From Clostridia bacterium (lineage in GTDB: Bacteria > Bacillota > Clostridia > TANB77 > CAG-508): a DNA stretch of 64,000 bases. This document shows positions 57,509-64,000 of the stretch, piece after piece (within the stretch, counting starts at the first letter, position 1; every line of letters begins with the position of its first letter). A program made the position numbers and the translations under genes. The notes beneath the pieces are model-generated. The model worked only from the letters and a program-made list of their open reading frames with translations, searched no databases and had not been told where the DNA came from. The DNA is taken from assembly GCA_017936925.1 (NCBI GenBank), contig JAGBEP010000019.1:1-64000 (forward strand). Direction: 5' to 3'.

Positions 57509-57961
57509 TTAGGTTCTGTAATTATTTCTATCTGCTCTTTCATCAAATTCTCGATCGTATTCTTTGTTTCCATAAAACCACACTGTTTTTTTATCTTCTC
57601 CTGAACCCATTCTGTTTCTATTTATCCAAATATCAATAAAAGATACTAATGGTAGTATAACACCAAGTGCATCTATTAATATTGTTTCTGTATTTCCTGT
57701 GTGATTCATTAAACAGCTATATAAATCGTTTCCAAAATATGCTGTAAATAGTATAAAATATGTAAATGCTCCCCATACATTTCTTTTTAGTACTAATGCA
57801 AAACATGGTATTGTAACAAATAATAATGCTATTTCTAGATTTATGTTTATTGGAGTTACGGCAAACTCTATTTCCATTGATGCACAAAATACTACTACTA
57901 ATCTAAATCCCCAAAATAATATTCCTAAGAATGATATTAAGTAACTTAACATTCCAACCAT
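57509..57961 (-). CDS. Multi-pass membrane protein of unknown function
   Basis: 150 aa; about four hydrophobic helices (YLISFLGILFWGFRLVVVFC, NLEIALLFVTIPCFALVL, WGAFTYFILFTAYFG, ILIDALGVILPLVSFIDIW), then a polar cytoplasmic tail rich in Asp/Arg. Start with AGGAGG upstream. No family recognised; resembles small four-helix membrane proteins of Clostridia. Confidence 0.6.
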   Translation of the reverse strand: MVGMLSYLISFLGILFWGFRLVVVFCASMEIEFAVTPININLEIALLFVTIPCFALVLKRNVWGAFTYFILFTAYFGNDLYSCLMNHTGNTETILIDALGVILPLVSFIDIWINRNRMGSGEDKKTVWFYGNKEYDREFDERADRNNYRT

Positions 57962-58496: not shown

Positions 58497-58913
58497 CTAT
58501 TTATTTTTATTCATATACATTTCTAAAATGTATACTGCTGAAATTGTATCTACTAAATTTCTTTTTTTCTTTGGATTTATATTTAAATCATTCATTGTTC
58601 TATGTGCTTCAACAGTTGTAAGTCTTTCATCCATAGTGTCAATTTTTATTTTGTTATACTTACATTTTAATTTATGAATAAATTTTTCTGTTATCTCAGC
58701 TCTTTCTGACTTATCTCCATTTAAGTGCAATGGCATTCCTACAACAATGCATCCAATTTCATATTCTGTCATTAATTCGTCTAATCTTTTTAATACTACT
58801 TTATCATTTCCTTTATGATGTATTGTTTCTAGACCTTGAGCTGTTATTCCTAAACTATCTGTTATTGCAATTCCAACTCTAGCATCTCCATAATCAATTC
58901 CCAATATTCTCAT
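58497..58913 (-). CDS. ruvX: RuvX/YqgF RNase H-fold nuclease
   Basis: 138 aa. RNase H fold with [40 protein letters not shown] and DERLTTVEAHR, and the last Asp in LVDTISAVYILEMYM, the conserved YqgF signature. Implicated in pre-16S rRNA 5' maturation and in Holliday junction resolution. Start overlaps ireB stop (TAATGA). Confidence 0.93.
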   Translation of the reverse strand: MRILGIDYGDARVGIAITDSLGITAQGLETIHHKGNDKVVLKRLDELMTEYEIGCIVVGMPLHLNGDKSERAEITEKFIHKLKCKYNKIKIDTMDERLTTVEAHRTMNDLNINPKKKRNLVDTISAVYILEMYMNKNK

Positions 58914-59167
58914 TATTTTTCTAATCCTATATAATTTTTTACCATTTTTTCTAGCAATTCATCTCTTTCAACTTTTCGAATTAAATTTCTAGCGTCATTA
59001 TGGCTTGTTATATATGTTGGATCTCCTGATAGAATGTATCCAACTATTTGATTTATTGGATTATAACCTTTTTCTACTAAAGCATCATAGACTTTTTTCA
59101 TTATTTCTTTAGCTTCTAAGTTGTTATCTCGTTCAACTTTAAAACTCATTGTTTTATCAAAATCCAT
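58913..59167 (-). CDS. ireB: IreB family regulatory phosphoprotein
   Basis: 84 aa. [20 protein letters not shown] with the phosphorylatable Thr region, and [30 protein letters not shown] are the hallmark of IreB/YrzL proteins. In Enterococcus, IreB is a substrate of the PASTA kinase IreK and regulates cell-envelope stress tolerance. Conserved upstream of ruvX. Confidence 0.93.
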
Positions 59168-59185: not shown

Positions 59186-60283
59186 CTATATAAAATTAAT
59201 ATTATTTTCTTTTTTATCTGCTTTATCTAAGTATTCTTCTAGTTTTTTAGTAACACTTTCAATTCCTGTTCCTTTATAATAATTTCCAATTGCAAAATTA
59301 ATTTTTGGTCTTACTAAAAATTGTTCATATGTTTGTTCATTTATGTATTCTACTTGAGTGTCTTCTAAATCTTGTTTTAATGATTTTATCATTGGAACAA
59401 CTTCTTCTTCTGTTTTACCAATATAAACGATTACAAATTTTGGTCCCATATATCTTACAAATATGTCATTTGCATCAATACATGTTTTAGCCCAATTTGA
59501 TAAAGATATTATCACATTGTTTCCTACTATTCTAGAATATGTATTATTTATTTCTTCTATATTGGTAATTCTAAACATTGCTACTATTGATGTAGGTTCA
59601 GAATCTATTTTTGCTTTAGCTTGTCCATATAGATATTCTGCTGAGTACAATCCGGTAAATTGATCTGTTCTTACTATACTTTCCATCGCTGTTTGATATG
59701 ATACTGTTTTTAAAATTGAAACTATATCATCTTTTATTACTTCTAGTAATGTTGTATCTATATCATCAAATGCGTGTATTACAGAACTTTCGATAATCCA
59801 ATATCCTATATATACATTATCTATATATAGTGGAAAGAACATTGCAGATTTTGCTCTTGAAAAGTCCATTTTTTGATATGGTAGTTTTTCATCTTCTGAA
59901 TCTATCGTTATATATTTAGGTGTTGCGGTACTAATACTATCTTTGAATACATCTTCTGTATGTAAGTTAGTTAAATTATTCCAGTATTTTTGGTCTGTGT
60001 TTGATGCTTTTAATACATATTCTGCGCCATTGAATACAACTATACTTGAATACTTTATTTCAAATTTTTCTATTAATACAGAATTTATTTTTTGTATTTT
60101 TTCGTCTACTGGTAAATCTTCTCCAGTTATATTCATAAAGTCTTGAAGTGCATTTAACTTGTTTATTTTTGATGTAACATTGTTAAATGTTGTTAACTTC
60201 TTTTTGATATTAACATTGTAAACTATTAGAATTGAAATAATTCCAATTAATACAACTATCGGTATTAGTGCCACTTTTTTCAC
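59186..60283 (-). CDS. Membrane-anchored GAF and degenerate GGDEF protein
   Basis: 365 aa. One N-terminal membrane helix (VALIPIVVLIGIISILIVYN), a short coiled coil, a GAF-like domain (about 70-195, with AMFFPLYIDNVYIGYWIIES) and a GGDEF-like domain (about 205-345, beginning RTDQFTGLYSAEYLYGQAKA). The catalytic GGDEF is replaced by MGPKF, so cyclic-di-GMP synthesis is unlikely; it may be a sensor or effector. Its start is ten bases after the large repeat protein gene, so the two are probably co-transcribed. Confidence 0.7.
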   Translation of the reverse strand: MKKVALIPIVVLIGIISILIVYNVNIKKKLTTFNNVTSKINKLNALQDFMNITGEDLPVDEKIQKINSVLIEKFEIKYSSIVVFNGAEYVLKASNTDQKYWNNLTNLHTEDVFKDSISTATPKYITIDSEDEKLPYQKMDFSRAKSAMFFPLYIDNVYIGYWIIESSVIHAFDDIDTTLLEVIKDDIVSILKTVSYQTAMESIVRTDQFTGLYSAEYLYGQAKAKIDSEPTSIVAMFRITNIEEINNTYSRIVGNNVIISLSNWAKTCIDANDIFVRYMGPKFVIVYIGKTEEEVVPMIKSLKQDLEDTQVEYINEQTYEQFLVRPKINFAIGNYYKGTGIESVTKKLEEYLDKADKKENNINFI

Positions 60284-60292
60284 CTCTTAATT

Positions 60293-63200
60293 TTAATATT
60301 TATTTTTCATTTGATTCAATGTGTTATTCATTTCTGCAGAGAAGTTATTTCCATAATTTGCTTCTGCTGAACTCTTAGTATTATATGTTTGTTTACTTAG
60401 CAATGGATATACCATATTTCCTAAAATTTTTAAACTGTTCATAAAACTTTTGTTATATCCACTTATTGTTATAACACAATTTACAATTGATTCCAAGTAT
60501 TTTGAATATACTCCTTCATCAAATGGTATACTACATGCTCTTATTTTCTCTTTATTAAATAATTCTGTCATATATGACATTGCTGGGTCATTGTAAAATG
60601 ACATTCCACCAATTACCGCCTTGCTTGATAATCCTTTAACTTTTACTTCTTTATTTATTACAACTCTTAATTTTTCTTGCTCTAATATTCCTTTTGTTTT
60701 TAAATCTCTTAAGAATGCTGTTAATGGTTGGATTGTTAATATATCCATTGATTGAACAAGATATATTTCTTGAGCATTAGCTAAGTATCCTAAATCTGTA
60801 GTAAAATCGCAATCAATTAATATTAGTGATTCGTTTTGTACTAGTGTTGATAGAATAGCTTCTGCATTTGAATAATCTTTTCCATCGTTAGGTATAGATG
60901 TATATACATTTAAGTTTCTATCAACTCTTATACCTTCGGCAATTCCGTTTTCAAGATTTTCAATTGATGAGTAAGCAATATTTCTTAAGTTTTCATCATT
61001 ATTAGTATAAATGAAATATGAATTTTTATTTGATGTCATATCTAATATGGCTGTTTTTACTCCTATTGATGAAAATAGACATGCTAGATTATTTACTAAG
61101 AATGATGTTCCACTTTTGCTTGCTCCAACAAAAGCTACAATCTTTTTGTCTTTTGTTAAAATTGAATTTAGACTGCCTGTTGAATATAATCTATTTTCTT
61201 CTATTTTTTGTAGTGATTCTTTTCTTTCTTGACTTGGTGAATATGATGAAACTTGTTCATTATAATTGTCTTGTTGTGCGAATCCAATACTTGATTGGTT
61301 ATATCCAGTATTCTGTTGGTTATAACTATTGTTTTGTTCATATCCATTATTTGTTTGGTTATCATATTGATTCAATGTGCTATTTGGATTGTATCCATTA
61401 TCTGCTTGGTTGTAATTGTCAACTTGATTATAATTGTTATTTGTACCGTATCCTGTAGAAGCTTGATTATAGTCATAATTTTGTTGATAATTTGTCGTAG
61501 TGTTTGTATTATATGGATTTACTACAGAACTTGATAGTGTATCTGAATTATTTTCTAATTCATATCCTACACTATTATCTATTCCTGGTAAAGAATTATC
61601 ATTTTCTGCAAATGGATCTGCATCCCAATCATTTACTCCTGGTAATGTTGTTTCTTGTTGCATGTTTTGAGTTGTCTGTACTGTACTTTCTGCAAATGGA
61701 TCTGCATCCCAATCGTTTACTCCTGGTAATGTTGTTTCTTGTTGCATGTTTTGAGTTGTCTGTACTGTACTTTCTGCAAATGGATCTGAATCCCAATCAT
61801 TTACTCCTGATAATGTTGTTTCTTGTTGCATGTTTTGATTTGTTTGTACTGTACTTTCTGCAAATGGATCTGAATTCCAATCATTTACTCCTGGTAATGT
61901 TGTTTCTTGTTGTATGTTTTGAGTTGTCTGTACTGTACTTTCTGCAAATGGGTCTGTATTCCAATCTTCCACTCCTGGCAATGTTGTTTCTTGTTGCATA
62001 CTTTGAGTTGTTTGTACTGTACTTTCTGCAAATGGGTCTGTATTCCAATCTTCCACTCCTGGCAATGTTGTTTCTTGTTGCATACTTTGAGTTGTTTGTA
62101 CTGTACTTTCTGCAAATGGGTCTATATTCCAATCTTCCATTCCTGGCAATGTTGCTTCTTGTTGTATGTTTTGACTATAGCCATTGTATGATTGATTTGG
62201 CATCTCGTTTTGAAGTATTGTTTTTTGATAATCTTGTTGATTTATTGTTTCATTTTCTAAAATAACGTTTTGATTATTTGGTACCATTGTTGGAATTGGT
62301 GCTTTTGGTTCTTCTACTTCTGTTAATTGAGTTGATTGCGCTTGAACCGGTAGTTTTTCTGATGTTTGTGAAGTAATTGTTTGCTCCTCTTTTTCTATTT
62401 GAGCCTCTTCTGGTAATGGATTTTTTCTAGGTCTTCCTCTTTTTCCCTTTGGCTTTGGTGGCTCAATTGGATATTTTCTAGGTCTTCCTCTTCCTCTTTT
62501 TGGTGGTTGTGGTACTTCTGGTATACTTGTTACATCTGGCATTTGTAGTTGATCTTCAGTCATTTTTTCTACAATTGGTTCAGTTGCAGTATTCATATTA
62601 TTTTCAATATTTTCGTAACTTGTTTCTAAGCTTTCAGGTTGAAGATCTACATTATTATTTATTTCTTTTATTTTTGTATTTTCTATTTCAGGCACATTTG
62701 ATTCTGGAAATGTTATATCTTCTAATCCTGGTAATGTAGCTTCTTGTTGTATGTTTTGATTTGCTTGTTGTACATTATTTTCGATTACTGAGTCTTCATC
62801 CCAATTTTCTAGTTCTGGTAATGAATTGCTTTCTGCGCCAGATATATTTGTTTCTGGGAATGTTACATCTTCTAATCCTGGCAATGTTGCTTCTTGTTGT
62901 ATGTTTTGATTTGTTTGTTGTACATTTTCTGCAAATGGATCTGCATCCCAATCTTCTAGTCCTGGTAGTGAATTGCTTTTTGCTCCAGATATATTTGTTT
63001 CTGGGAATGTTACATCTTCTAATCCTGGTAATGTCGCTTCTTGTTGTATGTTTTGATTTGCTTGTTGTACATTTTCTGCAAATGGATCTGCATCCCAATC
63101 TTCTAGCCCTGGTAGTGAATTGCTTTCTGCTCCAGATATATTTGTTTCTGGGAATGTTACATCTTCTAATCCTGGTAATGTTGCTTCTTGTTGTATGTTT

Positions 63201-64000
63201 TGATTTGATTGTTGTACATTTTCTGCAAATGGATCTGCATCCCAGTCTTCTAGTCCTGGTAGTGAATTGTTTTCTGCTCCAGATATATTTGTTTCTGGGA
63301 ATGTTACATCTTCTAATCCTGGCAATGTTGCTTCTTGTTGTATGTTTTGATTTGTTTGTTGTACATTTTCTGCAAATGGATCTGCATCCCAGTCTTCTAG
63401 TCCTGGTAGTGAATTGTTTTCTGCTCCAGATATATTTGTTTCTGGGAATGTTACATCTTCTAATCCTGGTAATGTTGCTTCTTGTTGTATGTTTTGATTT
63501 GTTTGAGCTACTTCGTTTGACATTAATGGTTTAGTACTATTATGTTGGTTATTTTGAACAGATTCTTGCTCCATTTGCTGTGTTGGTTGTGCTATATTTT
63601 CCATTCTTCTTTCTCTTGGAGTGTTGTTTATAGCTTGTAATTCTTCGTCTGAATATATTTTTCTCTCATTTTTAATATTCATATTATTTGGAATTATTAC
63701 ATTTCCTGTCATTCTAGGTTGAGCATTTTTATTATCTAATAAATCAATTCCACTTCTTAGTTGTGTCTGTACTTGAGGTGCTTGTTGCTGTATAGGTTGG
63801 TTTGATTCTTTTTGAGCTTTTCTTAAAGCCTCTTTTTTCTCTTTTTCTATTTTTTGTTTTAATTTTCGGTCATTCTCGATTTGTTCCATTCTTCTTTGTT
63901 CTTGAATTTTAGCTTTTGCTGCCTTTTCTTCTTCAGATTCATCTGCGTATGTAACTAATTCTTGATATTTAGGGCATTCTGCTTCTAGAACAGCTCTAAC
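60293..64000 (-). CDS. Very large repeat-rich protein with AT-hooks and C-terminal MinD/ParA-like ATPase (5' end off window)
   Basis: The minus frame is open to the window edge (upstream residues include EAECPKYQELVTYADESEEE), so the true start is missing; at least 1235 aa. From the first ATG (63889): charged coiled coil, five copies of a 49-aa repeat (LPGLEDVTFPETNISGAE type), two AT-hooks (KRGRGRPRKYP, GKRGRPRKNP), seven copies of a 28-aa repeat (QQETTLPGVEDWNTDPFAES type), an Asn/Gln/Tyr-rich linker, and a P-loop domain (about 910-1190). Its Walker A-like loop is AFVGASKSGTSFLVNNLACL, with ILIDCDFTTDLG as the next motif and PFDEGVYSKYLES near the end. This suggests a MinD/TadZ-like ATPase with an unstructured, DNA-binding arm. 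Localisation and role unknown. Confidence 0.75.
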   Translation of the reverse strand, partial: VRAVLEAECPKYQELVTYADESEEEKAAKAKIQEQRRMEQIENDRKLKQKIEKEKKEALRKAQKESNQPIQQQAPQVQTQLRSGIDLLDNKNAQPRMTGNVIIPNNMNIKNERKIYSDEELQAINNTPRERRMENIAQPTQQMEQESVQNNQHNSTKPLMSNEVAQTNQNIQQEATLPGLEDVTFPETNISGAENNSLPGLEDWDADPFAENVQQTNQNIQQEATLPGLEDVTFPETNISGAENNSLPGLEDWDADPFAENVQQSNQNIQQEATLPGLEDVTFPETNISGAESNSLPGLEDWDADPFAENVQQANQNIQQEATLPGLEDVTFPETNISGAKSNSLPGLEDWDADPFAENVQQTNQNIQQEATLPGLEDVTFPETNISGAESNSLPELENWDEDSVIENNVQQANQNIQQEATLPGLEDITFPESNVPEIENTKIKEINNNVDLQPESLETSYENIENNMNTATEPIVEKMTEDQLQMPDVTSIPEVPQPPKRGRGRPRKYPIEPPKPKGKRGRPRKNPLPEEAQIEKEEQTITSQTSEKLPVQAQSTQLTEVEEPKAPIPTMVPNNQNVILENETINQQDYQKTILQNEMPNQSYNGYSQNIQQEATLPGMEDWNIDPFAESTVQTTQSMQQETTLPGVEDWNTDPFAESTVQTTQSMQQETTLPGVEDWNTDPFAESTVQTTQNIQQETTLPGVNDWNSDPFAESTVQTNQNMQQETTLSGVNDWDSDPFAESTVQTTQNMQQETTLPGVNDWDADPFAESTVQTTQNMQQETTLPGVNDWDADPFAENDNSLPGIDNSVGYELENNSDTLSSSVVNPYNTNTTTNYQQNYDYNQASTGYGTNNNYNQVDNYNQADNGYNPNSTLNQYDNQTNNGYEQNNSYNQQNTGYNQSSIGFAQQDNYNEQVSSYSPSQERKESLQKIEENRLYSTGSLNSILTKDKKIVAFVGASKSGTSFLVNNLACLFSSIGVKTAILDMTSNKNSYFIYTNNDENLRNIAYSSIENLENGIAEGIRVDRNLNVYTSIPNDGKDYSNAEAILSTLVQNESLILIDCDFTTDLGYLANAQEIYLVQSMDILTIQPLTAFLRDLKTKGILEQEKLRVVINKEVKVKGLSSKAVIGGMSFYNDPAMSYMTELFNKEKIRACSIPFDEGVYSKYLESIVNCVITISGYNKSFMNSLKILGNMVYPLLSKQTYNTKSSAEANYGNNFSAEMNNTLNQMKNKY
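61590..62170 (-). repeat. Seven tandem 84-bp coding repeats
   Basis: A 28-codon unit (STVQTTQ-x-MQQETTLPGV-[EN]DW-x-x-DPFAE) is repeated about seven times with a few substitutions per copy. Similarity between copies at DNA level suggests recent expansion and possible length variation. Confidence 0.85.
62765..63510 (-). repeat. Five tandem 147-bp coding repeats
   Basis: A 49-codon unit (NIQQEATLPGLEDVTFPETN, ISGAE-x-NSLPGLEDWDADPF, AENVQQ-x-NQ) occurs five times, plus a partial sixth. The first four copies are almost identical and the fifth has diverged. It shares the LPG-x-[ED]DW...DPFAE core with the 84-bp array, so both derive from one module. Confidence 0.85.

Follow-up and report, generated by a model that had tools for sequence, protein, structure and literature searches.

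Layout of the gene

The 64,000-nucleotide stretch of contig JAGBEP010000019.1 analyzed here (the window), from a Clostridia bacterium, ends inside a large reverse-strand gene for a tethered ATPase that very probably descends from the pilus localization proteins TadZ and CpaE. The frame at 60293..64000 was confirmed to be open and extends past the window edge, with its start beyond 64000, and the 1235 residues within the window make up the C-terminal ∼85% of the protein. Statements below on the N-terminal domain of this genome's protein and on its upstream membrane gene are judged from relatives, which indicate that the N-terminal ∼210 residues outside the window would contain a receiver-like domain. 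The full layout, with relatives included, is receiver, tether, ATPase and conserved C-terminal peptide; within the window the order from N- to C-terminus is the end of the N-terminal domain, a 49-residue array, two AT-hooks, a 28-residue array, a linker rich in Asn, Gln and Tyr (N/Q/Y), a ParA/MinD-like domain and a short C-terminal peptide. The features are as follows.

60293..64000, reverse strand: gene for the tethered, TadZ/CpaE-like ATPase, its 5′ end outside the window (full-length orthologues in L036 and elsewhere)
63926..64000, reverse strand: end of the N-terminal receiver-like and helical domain, from alignment with full-length orthologues; VRAVLEAECPKYQELVTYADES is its last helical stretch
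62696..63505, reverse strand: 49-residue repeat array, 147 bp × 5.5, two LPG motifs per unit (Tandem Repeats Finder, 94% matches)
62423..62494, reverse strand: paired AT-hooks GRGRPRKYP ... GKRGRPRKNP (at least two hooks in 57/70 family members)
62474-62494, reverse strand: AT-hook GRGRPRK
62423-62446, reverse strand: AT-hook GKRGRPRK
62385-62492, reverse strand: 51-bp unit × 2.1, the duplicated AT-hook segment (Tandem Repeats Finder)
61603..62174, reverse strand: 28-residue repeat array, 84 bp × 6.8, one LPG motif per unit (Tandem Repeats Finder, 94% matches)
61154..61519, reverse strand: N/Q/Y-rich disordered linker (predicted)
60395..61153, reverse strand: predicted ParA/MinD-fold ATPase domain, from a structural model and alignment
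61100-61126, reverse strand: P-loop GASKSGTSF
60803-60826, reverse strand: Walker B LILIDCDF
60296..60343, reverse strand: conserved peptide at the C-terminus, FSxxMNxTLNxM[KR]xx[YF], a candidate helix for binding membrane or a partner

An original prediction made from this DNA had placed two repeat arrays, two AT-hooks and an Asn/Gln/Tyr-rich linker in one frame with a MinD/ParA-like ATPase. The arrays were borne out as 5.5 copies of 49 residues and 6.8 copies of 28, the hooks and the linker are present, and the fold of the ATPase was confirmed at the level of a model, as described below.

Predicted folds and nucleotide site

No Pfam or NCBIfam model scored above its cut-off against the window protein as a whole, and no Pfam family matched the N-terminal domain; the best member of the ATPase family gave a Pfam CbiA match (E 7e-7). 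The AlphaFold2 (AF2) model of the ATPase domain has a predicted local distance difference test score (pLDDT) of 92 and matches MinD/ParA structures at Z ∼20–22 over 213–231 residues, the best matches in the Protein Data Bank (PDB) being 4v02 (Z 21.9, 216 residues aligned, 2.7 Å) and 3ea0 (Z 21.9). The MinD-like FleN-FleQ is also among the structural matches, and the Foldseek list includes the structure of E. rectale TadZ, 3fkq (E 3.1e-6). Sequence searches of the PDB with the ATPase and N-domain profiles returned chance matches only, so the fold assignment rests on models; on these, we confidently predict a ParA/MinD fold for the ATPase domain.

The N-terminus of relatives comprises ∼230 residues, merely the end of which lies in the window. 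Its AF2 model, built from 50 sequences (pLDDT 88), shows a receiver fold followed by five helices. Structural matches to this model are receiver domains, with CpaE receivers among the top ones (4myr, Z 13.1; 4n0p, Z 12.5), and they barely cover the extra helical part at residues ∼165–229.

The P-loop of all members reads GxxKxG[TVN][ST]F, and the canonical KGGxxGK[ST] was not found in any of them. In our own alignment to KGGxxGKT, neither canonical lysine is retained, but the loop has an invariant lysine of its own (GxxKxG); the Walker A GASKSGTSF is as deviant as originally described, with the addition of this invariant lysine. Across the order, the ATPase shows no variation at K13, G15, D38, T40 and D114, the last being the Walker B aspartate (LIDCDF), and hardly any at D116. 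TadZ, which also has a deviant Walker A, binds ATP for dimerization (PMC13170226), and by this analogy ATP binding without classical hydrolysis is plausible for the window protein.

A core protein of one clostridial order

Among 37 genomes searched, 36 contain the ATPase domain, this genome included, with identities of 71–89% in the genus, 58–63% in the family and 35–44% outside the family. The N-domain profile matched 228 of 238 genomes of the order, which we take to be GTDB TANB77, a tally in which this genome counts as negative, its N-domain lying beyond the window; the matches cover 210 of the 217 good-quality genomes and all 41 genera. Outside the order, a search of the class yielded five weak matches and a search of the phylum one of 299, and these few include CpaE-like proteins beside Tad genes. 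The close relatives are uncultured gut Clostridia, ‘Candidatus Merdicola’ among them. We conclude that the ATPase belongs to the core proteins of a single order made up mostly of uncultured gut Clostridia, and the libraries searched contain no family for it. It adds to four strong ParA-type matches elsewhere in this genome.

Profile comparisons link both domains to CpaE. The N-domain profile aligned with the N-domain of a CpaE-like protein (hhalign E 5.6e-10, 28% over 127 residues) that is encoded next to RcpC/CpaB in a different clostridial family, and the ATPase profile aligned with a CpaE-like protein in a T2SSE/T2SSF locus of genome G036 (E 3.7e-7). Because G036 carries both this CpaE-like protein and the order-wide ATPase, the two are paralogues. 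The N-domain of the G036 protein gave no match to the N-domain profile, which leaves other Tad loci as the basis for the N-domain link. TadZ and CpaE combine a receiver-like domain with an ATPase that has a deviant Walker A (PMC13170226). The original prediction had named no known system with this layout; TadZ/CpaE comes close to it, the N-domain having lain outside the window. We consider descent from TadZ/CpaE-type proteins very likely from these sequence comparisons.

Two loci with other CpaE-like proteins were seen along the way. A hybrid locus of G036, a genome of the same order (L193:5831-10823), holds a VirB4/TraG-like ATPase, a CpaE-like protein with a canonical P-loop, a T2SSE ATPase and a platform-like protein, and is a machine resembling both Tad and type IV secretion systems (T4SS). 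In a clostridial locus of G231 (L190:6382-9676), an RcpC/CpaB gene is flanked by two different CpaE-like receiver-ATPase proteins.

Retention of the ATPase where pili are gone

A rival explanation is that the protein is still a functional pilus factor, a CpaE/TadZ-like accessory of the type IV pilus (PilB/PilT/PilC) of these organisms that simply persisted when the window's species lost its pilus. Besides common ancestry with the CpaE of Tad systems, this explanation draws on the position of type IV pilus genes (T2SSE/T2SSF) roughly 8–12 kb from the ATPase gene in G002, G004, G009, G011 and G012, all from the genus of this genome, and ∼15 kb from it in G030; several sister genomes have lost these genes. 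However, the linkage is missing where separate contigs or long distances divide the genes (G036, G021), and the ATPase was not lost with the pilus: T2SSF is absent in 9 of the 37 genomes, and 8 of those 9, including the 100%-complete G001 and G016, keep the ATPase. We therefore regard a surviving pilus factor as improbable.

At the locus itself, no Tad genes were found in relatives. In this genome T2SSF had no match and T2SSE had sub-cut-off matches only; the T2SSE/T2SSF search thus did not support a pilus role, which appears unlikely in this species. A role in type VII secretion, sought through WXG100, was likewise not supported, with WXG100 unmatched in this genome (G000) and never above the cut-off among the 37, and appears unlikely in this genome.

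AT-hooks and LPG motifs of the tether

The tether is ∼180–750 residues long in the window's family, is poorly conserved in sequence by eye and is probably disordered. In the window protein it contains 17 LPG[FLMVI][EDN] motifs. The context of LPG, as in the peptide LPGLEDWDADPFAE, is acidic, with the consensus [TIV]LPG[LFM][DE][DE]. Among 70 distinct full-length family homologues, at least one GRP AT-hook is present in 62, two in 57, and LPG motifs in 58. The tethers of these 70 contain 124 GRP[RKP] and 327 LPG motifs, compared with 0.49 and 0.48 expected from composition-preserving shuffles, although copies within recent repeats or related sequences are not independent counts; a chance origin of either motif is ruled out by the shuffles. 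An AT-hook consists of basic residues and prolines around a GRP core (PMC11354804), and in both GRGRPRKYP and GKRGRPRKNP the core is flanked by K/R and P. From these sequence features, the AT-hooks of the window's family are likely to bind DNA, and the LPG motif looks like a multivalent docking motif.

Outside the family the tether is different. None of the 11 members scored from other families of the order has an AT-hook, and their tethers are mostly shorter, or K/A/E-rich or P/K-rich. In a tree of 80 members the window's family forms one side of a fully supported branch, and the AT-hooks were therefore most simply gained at the base of the family. The architecture is thus no one-off, since AT-hooks and LPG motifs are conserved in most of the family and the GGDEF-type neighbor in all 102 loci. 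The original prediction missed that the core protein is order-wide, with AT-hooks in only one of its families, and that a small membrane protein encoded upstream is a second conserved partner.

In the same genome, a sortase-domain membrane protein (L002:505-1671; G000:C23:80424-81587, reverse strand) has a cytosolic N-terminal tail with three AT-hook-like GRP motifs. A long sortase homologue spanning the tail region was found in the sibling genome G004 only.

A tether of this kind could itself be the working part of the protein, with the ATPase a pseudo-enzyme and the LPG array, N/Q/Y-rich linker and AT-hooks forming a multivalent, non-enzymatic scaffold or condensate. The loss of both canonical P-loop lysines fits this possibility, as does an N/Q/Y-rich and repeat-rich tether in which motifs persist while the length varies from 180 to 750 residues. 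However, the invariance of K13, G15, D38, T40 and D114, and the near invariance of D116, suggest nucleotide binding, and TadZ, with its deviant Walker A, binds ATP to dimerize (PMC13170226). We judge such a scaffold to have only a modest chance of being correct.

Conserved neighbors and the C-terminal peptide

The genes downstream of the ATPase gene in the window are as follows.

59186..60283, reverse strand: membrane protein with N-terminal transmembrane segment, GAF-like region and degenerate GGDEF (RYMGPKF), the conserved downstream neighbor
58913..59167, reverse strand: IreB (PF06135), conserved next gene
58497..58913, reverse strand: RuvX/YqgF (PF03652), conserved next gene

The GAF/GGDEF gene reaches to 60283, leaving 9 bp to the ATPase gene. 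It lies directly downstream in 102 of 102 family loci, with gaps from 8 bp upward that are mostly below 35 bp; elsewhere it was found in one (f5) of four other families sampled. Its GGDEF signature is of the RYMGPKF type (for RYGGDEF) in nearly all homologues, and an intact signature occurs in none of the scored homologues (1 of 107 unscored). Because of this signature, the neighbor is unlikely to make cyclic di-GMP (c-di-GMP). The original description of a GAF/degenerate-GGDEF neighbor holds for the degenerate GGDEF, whereas the GAF region was unmatched by Pfam. IreB, RuvX and DUF1292 genes are present in nearly all family loci. Farther along (57509-57961, reverse strand), the window encodes a 150-residue conserved membrane protein without a Pfam family, which also occurs near the locus in G004.

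Directly upstream, a membrane protein of ∼138 residues, with a hydrophobic N-terminus and two more hydrophobic segments, is encoded in 76 of 84 testable family loci and in 11 of 12 loci of other families. One of four homologues matched PF18895, a VirB2-like pilin family of T4SS, at E 0.0035, below the cut-off.

The invariable GAF/GGDEF neighbor raises the possibility of a signaling or gene-regulation module, in which a receiver-like domain and an ATPase would be brought to DNA by AT-hooks and the degenerate GGDEF/GAF protein would act as membrane sensor, comparable to FleN-FleQ and to BcsQ with c-di-GMP. The constancy of the neighbor in the window's family and in f5, the REC-like domain and the appearance of FleN-FleQ among the structural matches are all in keeping with such a module. 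Nevertheless, the scored neighbor homologues lack the GGDEF signature, three families have the ATPase but not the neighbor, and AT-hooks are absent outside one family; we consider a signaling module unlikely. The ATPase and the GAF/GGDEF protein may, as originally suggested, form a membrane-linked positioning or scaffold pair.

Most of 86 distinct family tails end in FSxxMNxTLNxM[KR]xx[YF], with hydrophobic residues on one face of a helix and a hydrophobic moment moderately above that of shuffles. CpaE has an amphipathic helix after its ATPase (PMC13170226), and by analogy with MinD and CpaE the peptide is a candidate for binding membrane or a partner.

A proposed positioning hub away from the pilus

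The window protein thus has candidate elements for both the nucleoid and the membrane. We propose, at about even odds, that it is a divergent positioning hub derived from TadZ/CpaE, working away from the Tad pilus, probably membrane-associated and also gripping the nucleoid. Its ancestor would have parted from the Tad pilus and joined the core proteins of a single clostridial order, and in the window's family the tether gained the AT-hook pair and arrays of acidic LPG[FLM][DE][DE] motifs. As in TadZ, dimers might form in an ATP-dependent, switched manner. The C-terminal peptide, the two membrane neighbors or both could hold the protein at the membrane while the AT-hooks grip the AT-rich nucleoid, and the LPG motifs, as many copies of a docking peptide, may recruit a partner. 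Such a hub would bridge membrane and nucleoid and place its cargo relative to both.

Several points weigh against this proposal. The P-loop lacks the canonical lysine, so the ATPase could be inactive. The amphipathicity of the C-terminal peptide is weak, since 6% of shuffles reach the hydrophobic moment of the window peptide (family median 4.5%). Eight members, all in one clade of 13, are without AT-hooks and have a lysine-rich tract left; because they lost them, the hooks are not indispensable. A sortase of the same genome has AT-hook-like motifs in its cytosolic tail, so basic tails in this genome may carry GRP motifs more generally. Finally, we infer DNA, membrane and ATP binding alike.

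TadZ/CpaE is known as a pilus localization factor, and here a relative is kept where pili are gone; if the proposal is true, ATPases of this class can turn into proteins of general cell organization. The graft of AT-hooks on a positioning-type ATPase is unusual, and a literature search for AT-hooks together with bacterial ParA, MinD or CpaE found nothing relevant among the papers listed. With its conserved hook pair, the family lends itself to a direct test of whether a positioning-type ATPase can contact the nucleoid by a flexible arm.

Comparison with known systems

The closest known proteins are TadZ and CpaE (PDB 3fkq, 4n0p, 4myr), which share the N-terminal atypical receiver, the ParA/MinD-fold ATPase with a deviant Walker A and the C-terminal tail. 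Unlike them, the window gene has no Tad locus around it and no T2SSF or strong T2SSE match in its genome, its product has a much longer tether with AT-hooks and LPG arrays, its N-domain has an extra five-helix part, and it is an order-wide core gene. TsfV of T7SSf (PMC11217815) similarly has a TadZ-like receiver and ATPase outside a Tad locus, but its neighbors differ and no WXG100 protein scored over the cut-off in the 37 genomes. The paired hooks resemble those of HMGA-type proteins in their GRP core with basic residues and prolines (PMC11354804), but here they lie within a bacterial positioning-type ATPase.

ParA-type ATPases use the nucleoid as a matrix and MinD-type ATPases use the membrane (PMC10241942). 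The window ATPase shares their predicted fold but has neither the signature lysine nor the canonical Walker A lysine, and its putative DNA contact is through AT-hooks of the tether and not through the domain itself. It possibly uses both matrices. More tentatively, and with doubt, we suggest a third mode beside those of ParA and MinD, in which a lineage-wide, pilus-independent, TadZ-derived ATPase would use the nucleoid, through its AT-hooks, and the membrane, through its tail and membrane partners, at once and so link chromosome and envelope, with LPG arrays as a new docking motif recruiting the cargo.

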